A DNA stretch of 56,417 nucleotides from Betaproteobacteria bacterium (GTDB lineage Bacteria > Pseudomonadota > Gammaproteobacteria > Burkholderiales > Casimicrobiaceae): contig VBCG01000055.1 in the NCBI GenBank assembly GCA_005881895.1, positions 1 to 56,417 on the forward strand, written 5' to 3'. The notes under the pieces are model-generated. The model did no database searches, was not told the origin of the DNA, and saw only the letters and a list, made by a program, of their open reading frames with translations. The position numbers and the translations under genes were made by a program. The first letter of the stretch is position 1. The number at the start of each line of letters is the position of its first letter. Positions 41,273 to 47,728 of the stretch are shown in pieces.

Positions 41273-44200
41273 GTGACACCAGTGCCATCCACACATCGCG
41301 AATCGCCGTGGCCGCCGCGCGCGCAGGGTCTCTATCACCCTGCGCAGGAACATGATGCTTGCGGCCTTGGATTTATCGCGCACATCAAGGGACGCAAAAG
41401 TCACGCCATCATCGAACAAGGATTGCAGATCCTCGTCAATCTCACGCATCGCGGCGCGACGGGCGCCGATCCTCTTCAGGGCGATGGAGCCGGCATTCTG
41501 CTGCAGCTGCCGGACGCGTTTTTTCGTCGCGCCTGCGGCAAATTGGGTATCACGTTACCGGCGCCGGGGCAGTACGGGGTTGGCATGGTGTTTCTGCCGC
41601 GCGAGCCGGCGTCACGGGTGGCATGCGAACAGGAAATCGAACGCGCGATCCATGCGGAAGGCCAAGTATTGCTTGGCTGGCGCGAGGTGCCGACCAACAA
41701 CGTCGGACTTTCCCTGCGCACGAAGGAAGTCGAGCCGGTGATTCAGCAGGTGCTCGTGGCGCGCGGAACGCGCGACATGGACCAGGACGCGCTCGAGCGC
41801 AAGCTCTATGTGATCCGCAAACGTGCCGGACACGCGATTCAGGCGCTCAATTTGCGCCACGGAAAGGAATTCTTCGTGCCGTCGTTTTCGACGCGCACGA
41901 TTGTCTACAAGGGGATGCTGCTCGCGCATCAGGTCGGCGAATACTATCGCGATCTGCACGACGAAACGATGGTCTCGGCGCTCGCGATGGTGCACCAGCG
42001 CTTCTCGACCAACACGTTTCCTACATGGGATCTCGCGCATCCATTCCGTTTCGTCTGTCACAACGGCGAAATCAATACGCTACGCGGCAACTTCAACTGG
42101 ATACGCGCCCGCGAAGGCGCGATCGCATCGAAGGTTCTCGGCGACGATTTGGCGAAGCTGTGGCCATTGATCTACGAAGGCCAGTCCGATTCGGCGTCCT
42201 TCGATAACGCGCTCGAGCTCTTGACGATGGGTGGCTATTCGCTCGCGCACGCGATGATGATGATGATTCCCGAAGCGTGGGCGGGCAATCCGCTGATGGA
42301 CGAGGATCGTCGGGCATTTTACGAATATCACGCGGCACTGATGGAGCCTTGGGATGGTCCCGCAGCGATGGCGTTCACCGACGGTCGTCAGATCGGTGCA
42401 ACGCTCGACCGCAACGGCTTGCGTCCGGCGCGCTACGTCGTCACCGACGACGATTACATCGTAATGGCCTCGGAAGTCGGCGTTCTCGACATTCCCGAGC
42501 GCAAGATCGTCAAGAAATGGCGCTTGCAACCGGGCAAGATGCTGCTGGTCGACTTGGAGCAGGGACGCATCGTCGACGACGATGAGTTGAAGCGCACGCT
42601 TGCGACGCAAAAGCCCTATCGGCAATGGATCGCGCAATGTCGGCTTTCGCTCGAAGACATGCCCGAGCCCGCGCCGCCGGCGCCGTCTGAGGTCTCGCTG
42701 CTCGATCGGCAACAAGCGTTCGGCTACACGCAGGAAGATTTGCGCGTGATCTTGGCGCCGATGGCGCAAAACGGCGAGGAAGCCGTCGGATCGATGGGCA
42801 ACGATACCGCGCTGCCGGTGCTGTCGAATCGGCCGAAGGTCTTCTACCACTATTTCAAGCAGTTGTTCGCACAGGTGACGAATCCGCCGATCGATCCGAT
42901 CCGCGAAGAGCTCGTGATGTCGCTCGTGTCTTTCATCGGACCGCGACCGAATCTGCTCGCCGTAGACGTCACCGAACCGCCGATGCGCCTGGAAGCGCAG
43001 CAGCCGATCCTCACGCCCGAGAATATGGAGAAGCTGCGGCATGCCGAGCTTTTTTCGGGCGGCGCGTTCCGGTCGATCGAGCTCGACATGTTATCCGGCG
43101 TCGTGGGGCGCGAACGGCATGGAAGCTGCGCTCGCAAGCCTCGCTGCGCATGCCGAAGATGCGATCCATCAGAACTTCAATATCGTAATCCTCTCCGATC
43201 GCAGCGTGTCGGAGGCGCTGTTGCCGATCCCCGCGCTCGTCGCGACGGCCGCCGTGCACGAGCATCTCGTCAAGAAAGGTTTGCGGACATCGGTCGGTCT
43301 CGTCGTCGAGACCGGTTCTGCGCGCGAAGTGCATCATTTCGCATTGCTCGCAGGTTATGGTGCCGAAGCGATCCATCCGTATCTGGCGCTGGAAACGCTG
43401 GCGGAATTGCACAAGCAGATACCGGAGATCGATCCGAAGCAATCGCAAAAGCGCTACATCAAGGCGATTTGCAAAGGCCTCTACAAGGTCATGTCGAAGA
43501 TGGGTATCTCGACCTACCAATCGTATTGCGGCGCGCAGATCTTCGAAGCCGTCGGACTGCAGAAGGCTTTCGTCGAAAAATATTTCACCGGCACGGCGAG
43601 CAACATCGAAGGTATCGGGTTGTTTGAAGTGGCCGAGGAAGCGGAGCGCCTGCACGCGCTCGCGTTCAGCGATGATCCGCTGCTGCGCAACGCGCTCGAC
43701 GCCGGCGGCGAGTACGCCTATCGCGTGCGGGGCGAAGAGCATATGTGGACGCCGGACTCAATCGCGAAGCTGCAGCACGCCGCGCGCGCCAATTCGTGGT
43801 CGACGTATCGCGAATACGCAGCGTTGATCAACGAGCACGGAAAGAAGCTTAAGACGCTACGTGGCTTGTTCGAGTTCAAGACCGGCGAACGCACACCGAT
43901 CCCGATCGACGACGTCGAGCCGGCGAAGGAAGTCGTCAAGCGTTTCGCGACCGGCGCGATGAGTCTCGGCTCCATCTCGACCGAAGCGCACACGACGCTT
44001 GCGGTGGCGATGAATCGGATCGGCGGCAAGTCGAACACCGGCGAGGGCGGCGAAGATGCGCTCCGTTATCGCGCCGAGATGCGCGCGGGCAAGAGTACGG
44101 TCAAGAACGGCGACACGCTTGCCAGCATGATCGGTCATGATCGCGTCGAAGCAGATGTGCCGCTCAAGGCGGGCGACAGCCTGCGCTCAAAAATCAAGCA

Positions 44201-46016
44201 GGTCGCCTCGGCGCGCTTCGGCGTCACGGCAGAGTACCTGTCATCCGCCGATCAGCTGCAGATCAAGATGGCACAAGGCGCAAAGCCGGGCGAGGGCGGT
44301 CAATTGCCCGGCCACAAGGTGTCCGGGTACATCGCGACGCTGCGCTACTCGGTGCCCGGTGTCGGGCTCATCTCGCCGCCGCCGCATCACGACATCTATT
44401 CGATCGAGGATCTGGCGCAGCTGATCCACGATCTCAAGAACGCGAATCCGCGGGCGTCGATATCGGTGAAGCTCGTGTCGGAAGTCGGCGTGGGCACCGT
44501 CGCTGCCGGCGTGGCGAAAGCGAAAGCGGATCACGTGACGATCGCGGGGCATGACGGCGGCACGGGCGCTTCGCCCGAGTCATCGATCAAGCACGCGGGC
44601 ACGCCGTGGGAATTGGGCCTTGCAGAAACGCAGCAGACGCTCGTGCACAACCGGCTGCGCGGTCGGATCGCCGTGCAGGTCGATGGCCAGATGAAGACAG
44701 GTCGCGACGTGGTGATCGGCGCCATGCTCGGCGCCGACGAGTTCGGGTTTGCGACGGCGCCGCTTGTCGTCGAAGGCTGCATCATGATGCGCAAGTGCCA
44801 TCTCAACACGTGCCCGGTCGGCATCGCGACGCAGGATCCCGAGTTGCGCAAGCGGTTTGCCGGATCGCCGGAGCACGTCGTCAATTATTTCTTCTTCGTT
44901 GCGGAGGAAGTGCGCGAATTGATGGCACGGCTCGGGTTTCACACGTTCAGCGAAATGATCGGCCGCTCCGACTTGCTCGACATGCGCAAAAGCATCGAGC
45001 ATTGGAAAGCGCGCGGGCTCGATTTCTCGCGCGTGTTCTTCCAGCCGAAGATGCCGCCCGAGGTCGCGCGCCATCAGTGCGAAGAGCAGGACCATGGCCT
45101 GGCCCGAGCGCTCGATCATCAGCTCATTGCAGCGGCCGCAAAGGCGATCGAGACCCGCGAGCCTGTACGACTCGAATACCGGATTCGCAACGCGCACCGC
45201 TCCGTGGGGGCCATGCTCTCCGGCGCTATTGCGCGCAAGCTCGGACACGAGGGATTGCCGCCCGACACGATCCACGCGACGTTCGACGGTATTGCCGGTC
45301 AGAGCTTCGGTGCGTTTCTCGCGCGCGGCATCACGTTCGAGTTGCAGGGAGCGACCAACGATTATGTCGGCAAGGGATTGTCCGGCGGCCGGATCGTGGT
45401 GTACCCCGATCCTACGTGCCCCGCGAAGCCCGAAGAGAACATCGTTATCGGCAACACCGTCATGTACGGCGCGATCGAAGGCGAGGCGTATTTCCGCGGT
45501 GTCGCCGGCGAGCGTTTCTGCGTCCGCAACTCCGGCGCCTTCGCGGTCGTCGAGGGCACCGGCGATCACGGGTGCGAATACATGACCGGCGGAACGGTCG
45601 TGGTGCTCGGCCGCACCGGACGCAATTTCGCGGCCGGCATGAGCGGCGGCATCGCGTATGTCTATGATCCCGATCAAACCTTCGCGTCGCGTTGCAATCT
45701 ATCGATGGTCGCGCTCGAGACGCTGTTGCCGGAAGACGAGCAGACCCGCGTCGAAACGGAGCTTGCCGCGTCGGGCAAAGGCCGGAATTTGCATCTCGAC
45801 CGTTGCGACGAGCCGCTCGCGCGCAGTTTGATCGAAAAGCATCTGCGCTATACGGGATCGACGCTGGCGCTCACGCTGCTCGACAATTGGGAAAACGAGC
45901 GCGCGAAGTTCGTCAAAGTATTTCCCCACGAGTACAAGCGCGCTCTTTCCGAGATGTTTGCGAAGCGTGCCGCTGCGAGGGTCACCGAAGCCGCCAAGGC
46001 GCGTCAGGTCGCCTAG
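41273..46016 (+). pseudogene. gltB: gltB, glutamate synthase large subunit, interrupted by a frameshift near 43091
   Basis: Large subunit of NADPH-dependent GOGAT (glutamine + 2-oxoglutarate to 2 glutamate), about 1580 codons. The glutaminase nucleophile is Cys30 in QEHDACGLGFIAHIKG, exposed after propeptide removal. The FMN and central domains follow, with the 3Fe-4S ligands in [15 protein letters not shown] (about 44780) and the GXXGXXXG-type beta-helix at the end. Frame 1 is family-like to ELDM (43090); family-like [17 protein letters not shown] resumes one base later in the next frame from 43092. A two-base loss (LDM-TYP expected) or one-base gain explains it. The frame 1 product would end at 43627, before the FMN domain. 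Start GTG 41273. Confidence 0.92.
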
Positions 46017-46289
46017 GAGCCTCTGAATGGGTCCCGCGCGGTTGCGCTGCTATGCAAAATGCGGATGACTGCTAGACGAACGACGAAGGTAATAGTTCAT
46101 CCTATTACCGAGGAGGGCGGCGACGCAGGCGCCGCATTTTGCCGCAGCCCGGGGGGACGGCCCCGTTTCGGTCTGTCTACTTTGTCGCAGCTTCGCTCGT
46201 GTACGCTCGGTACACGTCGCTCGCTGCTTCGCGTATCCCATCCCGAAACGGGGCCGTCGCAACCGCGCGGGGCCCGTTCAGAGGCTCCT
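46015..46289. repeat. 275-bp structured inverted-repeat element between gltB and gltD
   Basis: Terminal inverted repeats of 32 nt (46015-46046 and 46258-46289) match at 30 positions; the other two are G-U pairs in plus-strand RNA. Between them are two arms. Arm 1 is GCAAAATGCGG with CCGCATTTTGC (46054-46064 / 46132-46142), enclosing hairpin GGTAATAG-CTATTACC (46088-46109). Arm 2 is a perfect 16-bp stem (46156-46171 / 46243-46258) enclosing CGTGTAC-GTACACG (46198-46216). The gltB stop codon overlaps the left end and the right end supplies AGAGG 7 bp before gltD. No coding potential is seen. Confidence 0.85.
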
Positions 46290-46291
46290 TA

Positions 46292-47728
46292 ATGGGGAAA
46301 GTCACCGGCTTCATCGAATTGCAGCGGATCAAGGAGGCAGCTGAACCGATCGCGCGGCGCGTCACCCACTATCGCGAATTCATCGTGACCCTCGCCGACG
46401 ATGAAGCTTCGCGGCAGGGCGCTCGCTGCATGGACTGCGGCATTCCGTTTTGCCAGACCGGATGTCCGATCAACAACATCATTCCGGACTGGAACGATCT
46501 CACGTATCGCCGGCAATGGCGCGCGGCTCTCGACGTCCTCCACTCAACGAACAACTTCCCCGAGTTCACCGGCCGCATCTGTCCCGCGCCGTGCGAAGCG
46601 GCTTGCACGCTCAACATCAATAACGATCCGGTAGGCATCAAATCGATCGAGCATTTTCTGATCGACAAAGGGTGGGAAGAAGGTTGGGTCGTTCCGCTGC
46701 CGCCGGCGGTGAAAACGGGCAAGCGCGTCGCGGTCGTAGGCTCCGGCCCTGCGGGAATGGCCTGCGCTCAGCAACTCGCGCGCGCGGGTCACGCTGTCGT
46801 GCTGTTCGAACGCGAAGACCGGATCGGCGGACTGCTTCGCTACGGCATCCCGGACTTCAAGATGGAGAAGCATCTGATCGACCGCCGAATGGCGCAGATG
46901 TCCGAGGAAGGCGTGGAATTCCGACCGAACATGAATGTCGGCGTTGATGTTTCGGCGCGGAGTCTGCTCGACCAGTTCGATGCCGTTGCGCTGACCGGCG
47001 GCGCCGAAGCGCCGCGCGATTTGCCGGTGCCCGGCCGCGATCTTGCCGGCGTCCATTTCGCGATGGAGTTCTTGCCGCAGCAGAACAAGGTTGTCGCGGG
47101 CGACGAGGTCGCGAATCAGATCAAGGCGAAGGGCAAGCACGTCGTCGTCATCGGCGGCGGCGACACCGGTTCAGACTGCGTCGGCACGTCCAACCGACAA
47201 GAGGCGGCGTCGGTGACGCAATTCGAGCTGCTGCCGCAACCACCGGAAGAGGAAAACAAGCCGCTCGTGTGGCCCTACTGGCCGATTAAGCTTCGCACGT
47301 CGTCGTCGCATGAGGAAGGCGTGGCGCGCGACTGGGCTGTCGCCACGAAGCGATTCGAGGGCCGCGACGGCCGCGTCGAGAAGCTCGTCGCCGCTCGGGT
47401 CGAGTGGCAAAAAGACGCAGGCGGCGCGATGAAGATGGTCGAGATTCCGGGGAGCGAATTCGAGATGAGCGCCGATCTCGTGTTGCTCGCGATGGGCTTC
47501 ACCGGCCCGGGGTCCCCGCACATGCTCGAGGAATTCGGCATCGAGCGCGACGCGCGCACGAATGTCAAGGCCAATACCGATGACTATCGAACATCGGTGC
47601 CTAAAGTATTCGCTGCGGGCGACATGCGTCGCGGGCAATCGCTTGTCGTTTGGGCAATTCGCGAAGGGCGGCAATGCGCGCGTGCGATCGATGAATTCTT
47701 GATGGGCACGTCGGCGCTACCCAGATAA
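46292..47728 (+). CDS. gltD: GltD, glutamate synthase small subunit
   Basis: 478 aa FAD and iron-sulfur subunit that passes electrons from NADPH to GltB. ATG 46292 gives [17 protein letters not shown]; the frame is open upstream through the repeat element but that part is not family-like. N-terminal cluster ligands are [17 protein letters not shown] and [14 protein letters not shown] (about residues 47-110). The FAD motif is [15 protein letters not shown] and the NADPH motif is [31 protein letters not shown] ends the protein. The distance from gltB is unusually large because of the 275-bp element. Confidence 0.95.

Follow-up and report, generated by a model that had tools for sequence, protein, structure and literature searches.

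The 273-bp element that lies between gltB and gltD in the stretch of betaproteobacterial DNA analysed here (56,417 nucleotides, referred to below as the window) is very probably a non-autonomous MITE of the IS5 family, judging from its ends, its target site and its copies elsewhere. It is a MITE ordinary in kind, with an insertion that probably left the stop codon of one gene and the start codon of the next in place. Going by sequence comparison, the more novel result is that its arms are of one covarying type that is joined to seven end types, in Betaproteobacteria and in a planctomycete MAG. As far as our searches of the open-licence literature and Rfam reach, this wider two-arm family with interchangeable ends is undescribed.

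Anatomy and fold of the element

The element occupies positions 46016–46288 on the plus strand and has the ends GGAGCC...GGCTCC, with bounds set by comparison with other genomic copies and of the TIRs. An earlier note on the same DNA had proposed a structured two-armed element of 275 bp at 46015–46289; the element is present but its exact bounds are the narrower ones. On the left, the target copy CTAG (46013–46016, plus strand; recognized by comparison with other copies) includes the gltB stop codon TAG (46014–46016), which thus overlaps the first bases of the element as had been proposed. The last G of this target copy is common with the element, leaving one base fewer than the usual YTAR + GG. 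On the right, the target copy TTAA (46289–46292, plus strand; recognized from other copies and from the empty site in the congener L112) overlaps the gltD start codon ATG (46292–46294).

The two plus-strand terminal repeats (46015–46046 and 46258–46289) are 32 nt long and complementary at 30 of 32 positions (94%). Of the first 30 element positions, 28 form Watson-Crick pairs and two form G-U pairs in plus-strand RNA, in agreement with the earlier description of repeats that pair over their full length with only G-U exceptions. The right repeat contains AGAGG (46280–46284), the likely gltD Shine-Dalgarno sequence that the note had also placed there, 7 nt before the ATG at 46292.

Between the repeats lie two arms that are the same conserved, laddered hairpin unit in inverted orientation: arm A (46051–46142, minus strand) and arm B (46163–46254, plus strand), which score 64.2 and 53.5 bits with the covariance model R1, both being among the 31 sequences used to build it. 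A 20-nt linker (46143–46162) that contains CCCGGGGGG separates them; in many relatives the linker reads CCCGAAGGG or near variants. The previously reported inner stems are present, one of 16 bp and perfect (46156–46171 with 46243–46258) and one of 11 bp closing the other arm (∼46053–46137), each arm having its own apical hairpin. In single folds, however, the arms are not plain stems but hairpins interrupted by regular small internal loops. The two-armed structure was confirmed by folding 46000–46300, which gave an MFE of −179.8 kcal/mol compared with −122.2 ± 4.75 for shuffled sequences (z −12.1; 0 of 100 dinucleotide shuffles equally stable). The longest ORF with an ATG, GTG or TTG start wholly within the 273 bp encodes 70 aa, and there is no transposase gene.

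Searching the window against Rfam gave no match at the gathering score; weak matches at E values up to 1 (Guanidine-II, 17.9 bits against 32; SNORA49, 20 against 35) were taken as chance. In 18 related loci the only Rfam matches were four tRNAs and one group I intron (L156 533–765, RF00028, 57.7 bits). No description of this two-arm repeat family was found in the open-licence PMC literature, which together with the Rfam result bears out the earlier remark that this is not a described family.

Ends, target sites and copies point to an IS5-family MITE

The element's own genome, a 4.29 Mb draft in 260 contigs, holds two more copies with 87% identity (contigs C247 and C130), a 70-nt piece of the arm core with 94% identity (C63) and diverged copies on C95 and C41, to which C42 was added by its end pattern. 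At E ≤ 0.001 the element had DNA matches in seven of 64 family genomes, with 12 and 13 matches in two of these. No match to the element was found in the plasmid and phage collections at E 1e-5. Dispersed copies, which would be expected from the suggestion in the earlier note that the element is a MITE, are thus found in its own genome and in relatives.

The copies end in GGAACCTCTGAA and TTCAGAGGTTCC or close to these. For the 18 elements with GGAACCTCTGAA-type ends, YTAR was present on at least one side in 13, on both sides in 8 and on neither side in 5. Identical YTAR copies on both sides were seen in five of the 18 (L019, L041, L050, L057 and L163); those of the window copy are only approximate, CTAG against TTAA with one base missing on the left. 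Duplication of a YTAR target is described for IS5 in a passage of PMC10359306, and an excerpt of PMC2266754 gives YTAR as the target of IS711 also.

Complete insertion sequences with similar ends were found on the viral contigs L087 and L090 (1196 bp; flanks CTAG/CTAG and CTAA/CTAA) and in family genomes, with YTAR on both sides in L199 and L200 and on the right flank only in L198 and L202, which are at contig starts. Their ends are alike but not identical to those of the element, L198 being the nearest (GGAACCTCTGAATAAT). The transposases of L087, L198 and L200 are of the IS5 type (NF033581, 329–349 bits, cut-off 140). Complete IS5-family elements of this type in sister genomes share GGAACCTCTGAA-type ends and YTAR flanks with the window element, which differs in being 273 bp long without a transposase gene, and in inner arms that were not seen by eye in the L087 insertion sequence.

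Overall, TIRs like those of an IS5 insertion sequence, YTAR duplications, a missing transposase, dispersed copies and empty sites were all observed, whereas an autonomous partner in the same genome was not. The L087-type transposase gave 0 matches there at E ≤ 1e-10 (the draft is rated 96% complete), so that the mobiliser may have been lost, may lie on the missing part of the draft, or may be another enzyme. Autonomous partners of MITEs are often lost, and we did not count one as a required feature. The ends and target suggest that the element would have been mobilised in trans by an IS5 transposase.

Two IS5 elements in the same genome, on C141 and C71, were rejected as mobilisers because their ends (GAGNTTATCCGTAAATAA) differ. 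These elements (L099 and L103) are IS5 of another type; the former gives an NF033580 match in two frames that overlap, and beside it is a lone end like those of the window element.

Probable insertion at an overlapping stop and start codon

The flanking genes are on the plus strand: the C-terminal frame of gltB at 43041–46016 (Pfam Glu_synthase and GXGXG) and gltD at 46292–47728 (TIGR01317, 748 bits, cut-off 447.7). The GltB end is present in 20 of 22 congeneric genomes, the element's own included. Since the stretch from L115 has no gltD, the junction could be compared in 18 of the 19 others, and the element was absent between gltB and gltD in all 18. In the nearest congener, L112 (67% identity across the end of GltB), the site is empty, and the stop codon of gltB shares bases with the gltD start codon in TGATG. 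In the window the junction reads CTAG-element-TTAATG. Dispersed copies, IS5-type ends, YTAR flanks and an empty-site relative bear out the third option of the note, a MITE that became part of the operon. At the same junction, the congener L124 (G014) has a different, shorter inverted repeat with 19-nt arms (GAAATCCGGGTCAGAGATG).

These arrangements suggest an ancestral overlap of the form ..YTAATG.. between the gltB stop and the gltD start, with the MITE inserting at YTAA. The resulting 4-bp target duplication would have provided the left flank with a stop codon and the right flank with a start codon, and both reading frames would thereby have survived. An insertion at YTAA that retained both codons is probably what happened; the anatomy and the empty-site relative support frame preservation, and the YTAA step remains inferred rather than proved because the target copies now differ and the left base is missing. 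An insert can thus sit between overlapping genes without breaking either, given that the target may contain the stop codon and that the duplication restores it.

At its right edge the inverted end of the element reads TTCAGAGGCTCC, and this places AGAGG at 7 nt from gltD, where it is presumably used. Once transcribed, the 32-bp stem would juxtapose the gltB stop and the gltD start and would bury the gltD Shine-Dalgarno sequence. Translation of gltD would then require either that gltB ribosomes finish on the left strand of the stem or that RNase III cuts it. A ribosome ending at gltB would cover that strand and free AGAGG; the ancestral coupling of the overlapping genes could thereby persist across the insert. 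We judge such translational coupling across the element to be plausible and slightly less probable than its absence. RNase III cutting is the chief alternative to coupling, and either would be a consequence of the insertion, not evidence of selection.

We noted that gltB is split over two frames, 41273–43627 and 43041–46016, with the break within the Glu_syn_central domain at ∼43.09 kb. This break may be an assembly error or a real loss. If the split is real, the gltB stop would be reached by few ribosomes, which would weaken the case for coupling.

Elements avoid gene interiors and often lie at stop codons

By pairing ends around arms we collected 59 elements with seven end types, after removal of false end pairings (L043, L156 at 21, L171 at 7144, L190 at 1032 and L191 at 1122). 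With gene calling based on codon usage, none of the 59 lay inside a called gene, 36 were intergenic and 23 had a stop codon no more than 2 nt from an edge. The 409 control YTAR sites from the same loci were divided into 47 at a stop, 204 intergenic and 158 inside genes. Avoidance of gene interiors is thus clear with the codon-usage caller.

Enrichment at stop codons relative to other non-coding YTAR sites is less certain, as it depends on the tolerance and on the gene caller. At tolerances of 0, 1 and 2 nt, 14, 21 and 23 of the 59 elements were at a stop, compared with 47 of 409 controls at each. Against control stop and intergenic sites this gave P values of 0.37, 0.008 and 0.0016, and against all control sites 0.013, 1e-5 and 8e-7. 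The 2-nt tolerance was chosen before these tolerances were compared, and an offset of 1 nt is expected where the listed end of an end type begins one base inside the target. A greedy long-ORF caller placed 13 elements at a stop, 6 inside genes and 40 in intergenic DNA; with it there was no stop excess over control stop and intergenic sites (odds ratio 1.03, P = 1.0), compared with 2.4 (P = 0.017) over all control sites. This caller was replaced by codon-usage scoring because we judged by eye that it picked spurious long ORFs in G+C-rich DNA. Neither the MITE identity nor the findings on the arms rest on the stop-codon habit, and both are unaffected.

Individual cases hold independently of these statistics: gltB is one, and in two loci (L019 and L193) both of two convergent genes stop at the target. 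For 10 of the 59 elements, both neighbours are on the same strand and no more than 15 nt from the ends, as for the window copy (L001, L003, L048, L053, L055, L059, L141, L153, L156 and L157).

End pairing shows no preference for the sense RNA strand

The earlier note had taken the two G-U pairs of the window copy as wobble-preserved pairing and hence as a sign of RNA-level function. Terminal mismatches were counted in 46 elements, the other 13 of the 59 having fewer than 22 of 30 end positions paired. There were 52 plus-strand wobbles, 51 minus-strand wobbles and 139 other mismatches; read in the sense of the adjoining gene, 17 were GU and 21 AC. For two transitions, the window copy's two GU out of two has a chance of one in four. 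The orientation of elements relative to the gene at whose stop they sit was 14:12, or 10:8 without those between convergent genes. Over the 46 elements the ends therefore give no indication that RNA pairing is maintained in the sense strand, and the step from wobble to RNA-level function is not supported. The even orientation, together with end mismatches without G-U bias, disfavours a conserved sense-RNA role.

These counts bear directly on the idea that the element is a cis-regulatory RNA under selection in the gltBD operon, setting the GltB:GltD ratio and keeping its pairing by wobble. Such an RNA would suit the very stable fold and the gltD Shine-Dalgarno sequence within the stem; it is nevertheless improbable given the absence of the element at this site in 18 of 18 other congeners with both genes placed, the similar elements adjoining other genes, and the lack of wobble preference or of a preferred orientation to genes. 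Still more improbable is a palindrome of the REP/BIME type mobilised by a RAYT (IS200/IS605) transposase. The element does share with REP/BIMEs opposed palindromic units at gene ends, and PMC3733652 reports that GTAG REP ends often supply the TAG stop codon of flanking ORFs. However, its abstract gives REPs as 20–40 bp, compared with arms of ∼80–100 nt here, and true TIRs with 4-bp target duplications and IS5-type ends do not fit such a palindrome. By eye, the arms also lack a GTAG or CGTC end tag. For a chance or assembly-made palindrome, which a draft genome of 260 contigs might have suggested, the 87% copies on other contigs and the relatives in other genomes leave a negligible probability.

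The MITE reading is compatible with a later role in RNA processing. Correia (Neisseria) and ERIC (Yersinia) elements have ends that differ from those of the window element, whose family differs from them also in its two-armed layout and exchangeable arms, and no sigma-70-like promoter site was found within 45900–46400. According to a MITE review (PMC10969869), both resemble the window element in being short, TIR-bounded and beside genes, and can act on transcripts: RNase III cutting is recorded for Correia elements and altered transcript levels for ERIC. With this precedent, the MITE might now act as an RNase III site or 3′-end stabiliser that separates the fates of the gltB and gltD mRNAs. 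The 32-bp near-perfect RNA stem would suit such a role, as would the way in which elements of both orientations stay clear of genes and often sit at their ends; no terminator-like site lies within 45900–46400, which counts against it, and by analogy we regard the role as possible while leaning against it.

The arms are one covarying hairpin type

Arms A and B belong to one hairpin type in opposite orientation, which folds as a ladder of short paired steps with small internal loops, mostly pyrimidine on both sides, and a variable tip. Scanning a genome collection for GCTTTGTCGC...GCTTCGCGCNATC gave 60 contigs, of which 56 look genuine; L150, L164, L168 and L195 were dropped by eye as chance, as were all seven matches to the arm pattern in viral contigs. 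The 56 contigs are labelled as Betaproteobacteria and Burkholderiales MAGs, Rhodocyclaceae, Thiobacillus, Hydrogenophilaceae, Sterolibacterium, Pelomonas and Candidatus Nitricoxidireducens, and also include an unplaced proteobacterial MAG, one gammaproteobacterial, one acidobacterial and one planctomycete MAG (seven contigs). For arms found in this way the core bases are invariant by construction, and only free positions count as evidence.

Covariation was assessed with 31 arms chosen for diversity; L146, L151, L161 and L162, where the arm is interrupted, were left out of the arm alignments. Of 23 pairs, 17 had changed on both sides (14.8 in shuffles), and the covariation score was 0.441, compared with 0.151 ± 0.015 for shuffles and 0.269 for the best slid version. 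The consensus structure had been drawn up manually from single folds, which gives it some advantage over its slid versions. Further pair types numbered 42 against 47.0 in shuffles, and this was the one of five measures that went against covariation. RNAalifold on an unguided arm alignment found almost nothing, we think because arm types differ by one base in phase. One pair beside the arm core was CG in 18, GC in 21, TA in 6, AT in 7 and unpaired in 7 of 59. The covariation that the note had proposed looking for in the stems is seen for the arms. It may come from selection on the folded strand, or could come from copying of one palindrome strand onto the other during replication; selection fits better because the unpaired loops are conserved.

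The covariance model detected the arm in 31 of the 64 family genomes (E ≤ 0.001), with up to 47 matches in one. In a class-wide sample it was found in 5 of 369 genomes at E ≤ 1e-4, the element's own included, by a search that scored few candidates per genome and so misses some (it found 8 of the 10 own-genome arms). Of the 110 arm matches, which come from 73 sources, 70 lie in 35 neighbouring pairs and 40 have no partner above threshold. The pairs are tail-to-tail in 34 of 35 cases, with 29 of those 34 spaced by 19–22 nt; the sole pair with both arms in the same orientation is at L153 5326–5525. Integron attC sites are likewise imperfect hairpins with conserved unpaired bases and a variable tip, a resemblance only, as no attC core sites were noticed by eye. 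Copies of 405–434 bp (L146, L151, L161, L162 and L175) have an extra segment of 140–170 bp beside an arm, apparently a nested repeat.

One two-arm body occurs with several ends

The two-arm body was found with the ends GGAACCTCTGAA, GGAACCACTGAT, GAGCCTATTTCA, GAGCNNNTAACA and GGGTCTGTTCTCA, and elements seen with one arm have the ends AACCTCAGTTGACC or, in the planctomycete MAG, TAGCCCGGCACGAT. As GGAACCTCTGAA resembles GGAACCACTGAT and GAGCCTATTTCA resembles GAGCNNNTAACA, these are different types of end but not all unrelated. The own-genome element on C63 matches the window copy over the arm core only (66 of 70 positions identical); its basal stem differs and its ends are its own, so that either arms have moved from one element to another or elements have changed ends. 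The sister genome G023 shares copies with records labelled as Betaproteobacteria, the arms of L184 and L189 recurring unchanged in L044 and L048, and it is this one sister genome that gives the family of the window its Betaproteobacteria label.

MITEs are commonly classified by their ends. That one covarying two-arm body is found with several different ends suggests a repeat family in which the body, rather than its ends, is what endures, and this would bear on MITE classification. More speculatively, the arms could be a hairpin cassette in their own right (GCTTTGTCGC...GCTTCGCGC ladder, pyrimidine-pyrimidine loops and variable tip), selected as folded DNA or RNA, set mostly as opposed pairs round a short linker, recognised by a host or element factor, and re-ended several times by the ends of different transposases. 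Such a cassette would outlive any one transposase; we consider this reading rather unlikely.

The planctomycete elements (L143, L165, L167, L176, L178, L182 and L190) are ∼160 bp long, with one arm that has the same core and other ends, and may reflect transfer or mis-binning. In a one-contig genome of the same order (G287), a two-armed element at L245 1407–1674 has 24-nt ends (AGAGCGTG..CACGCTCT) and directly follows a TAA near the contig start. The protein end upstream of it (LEQTLKG, read by eye) resembles that of DnaA.
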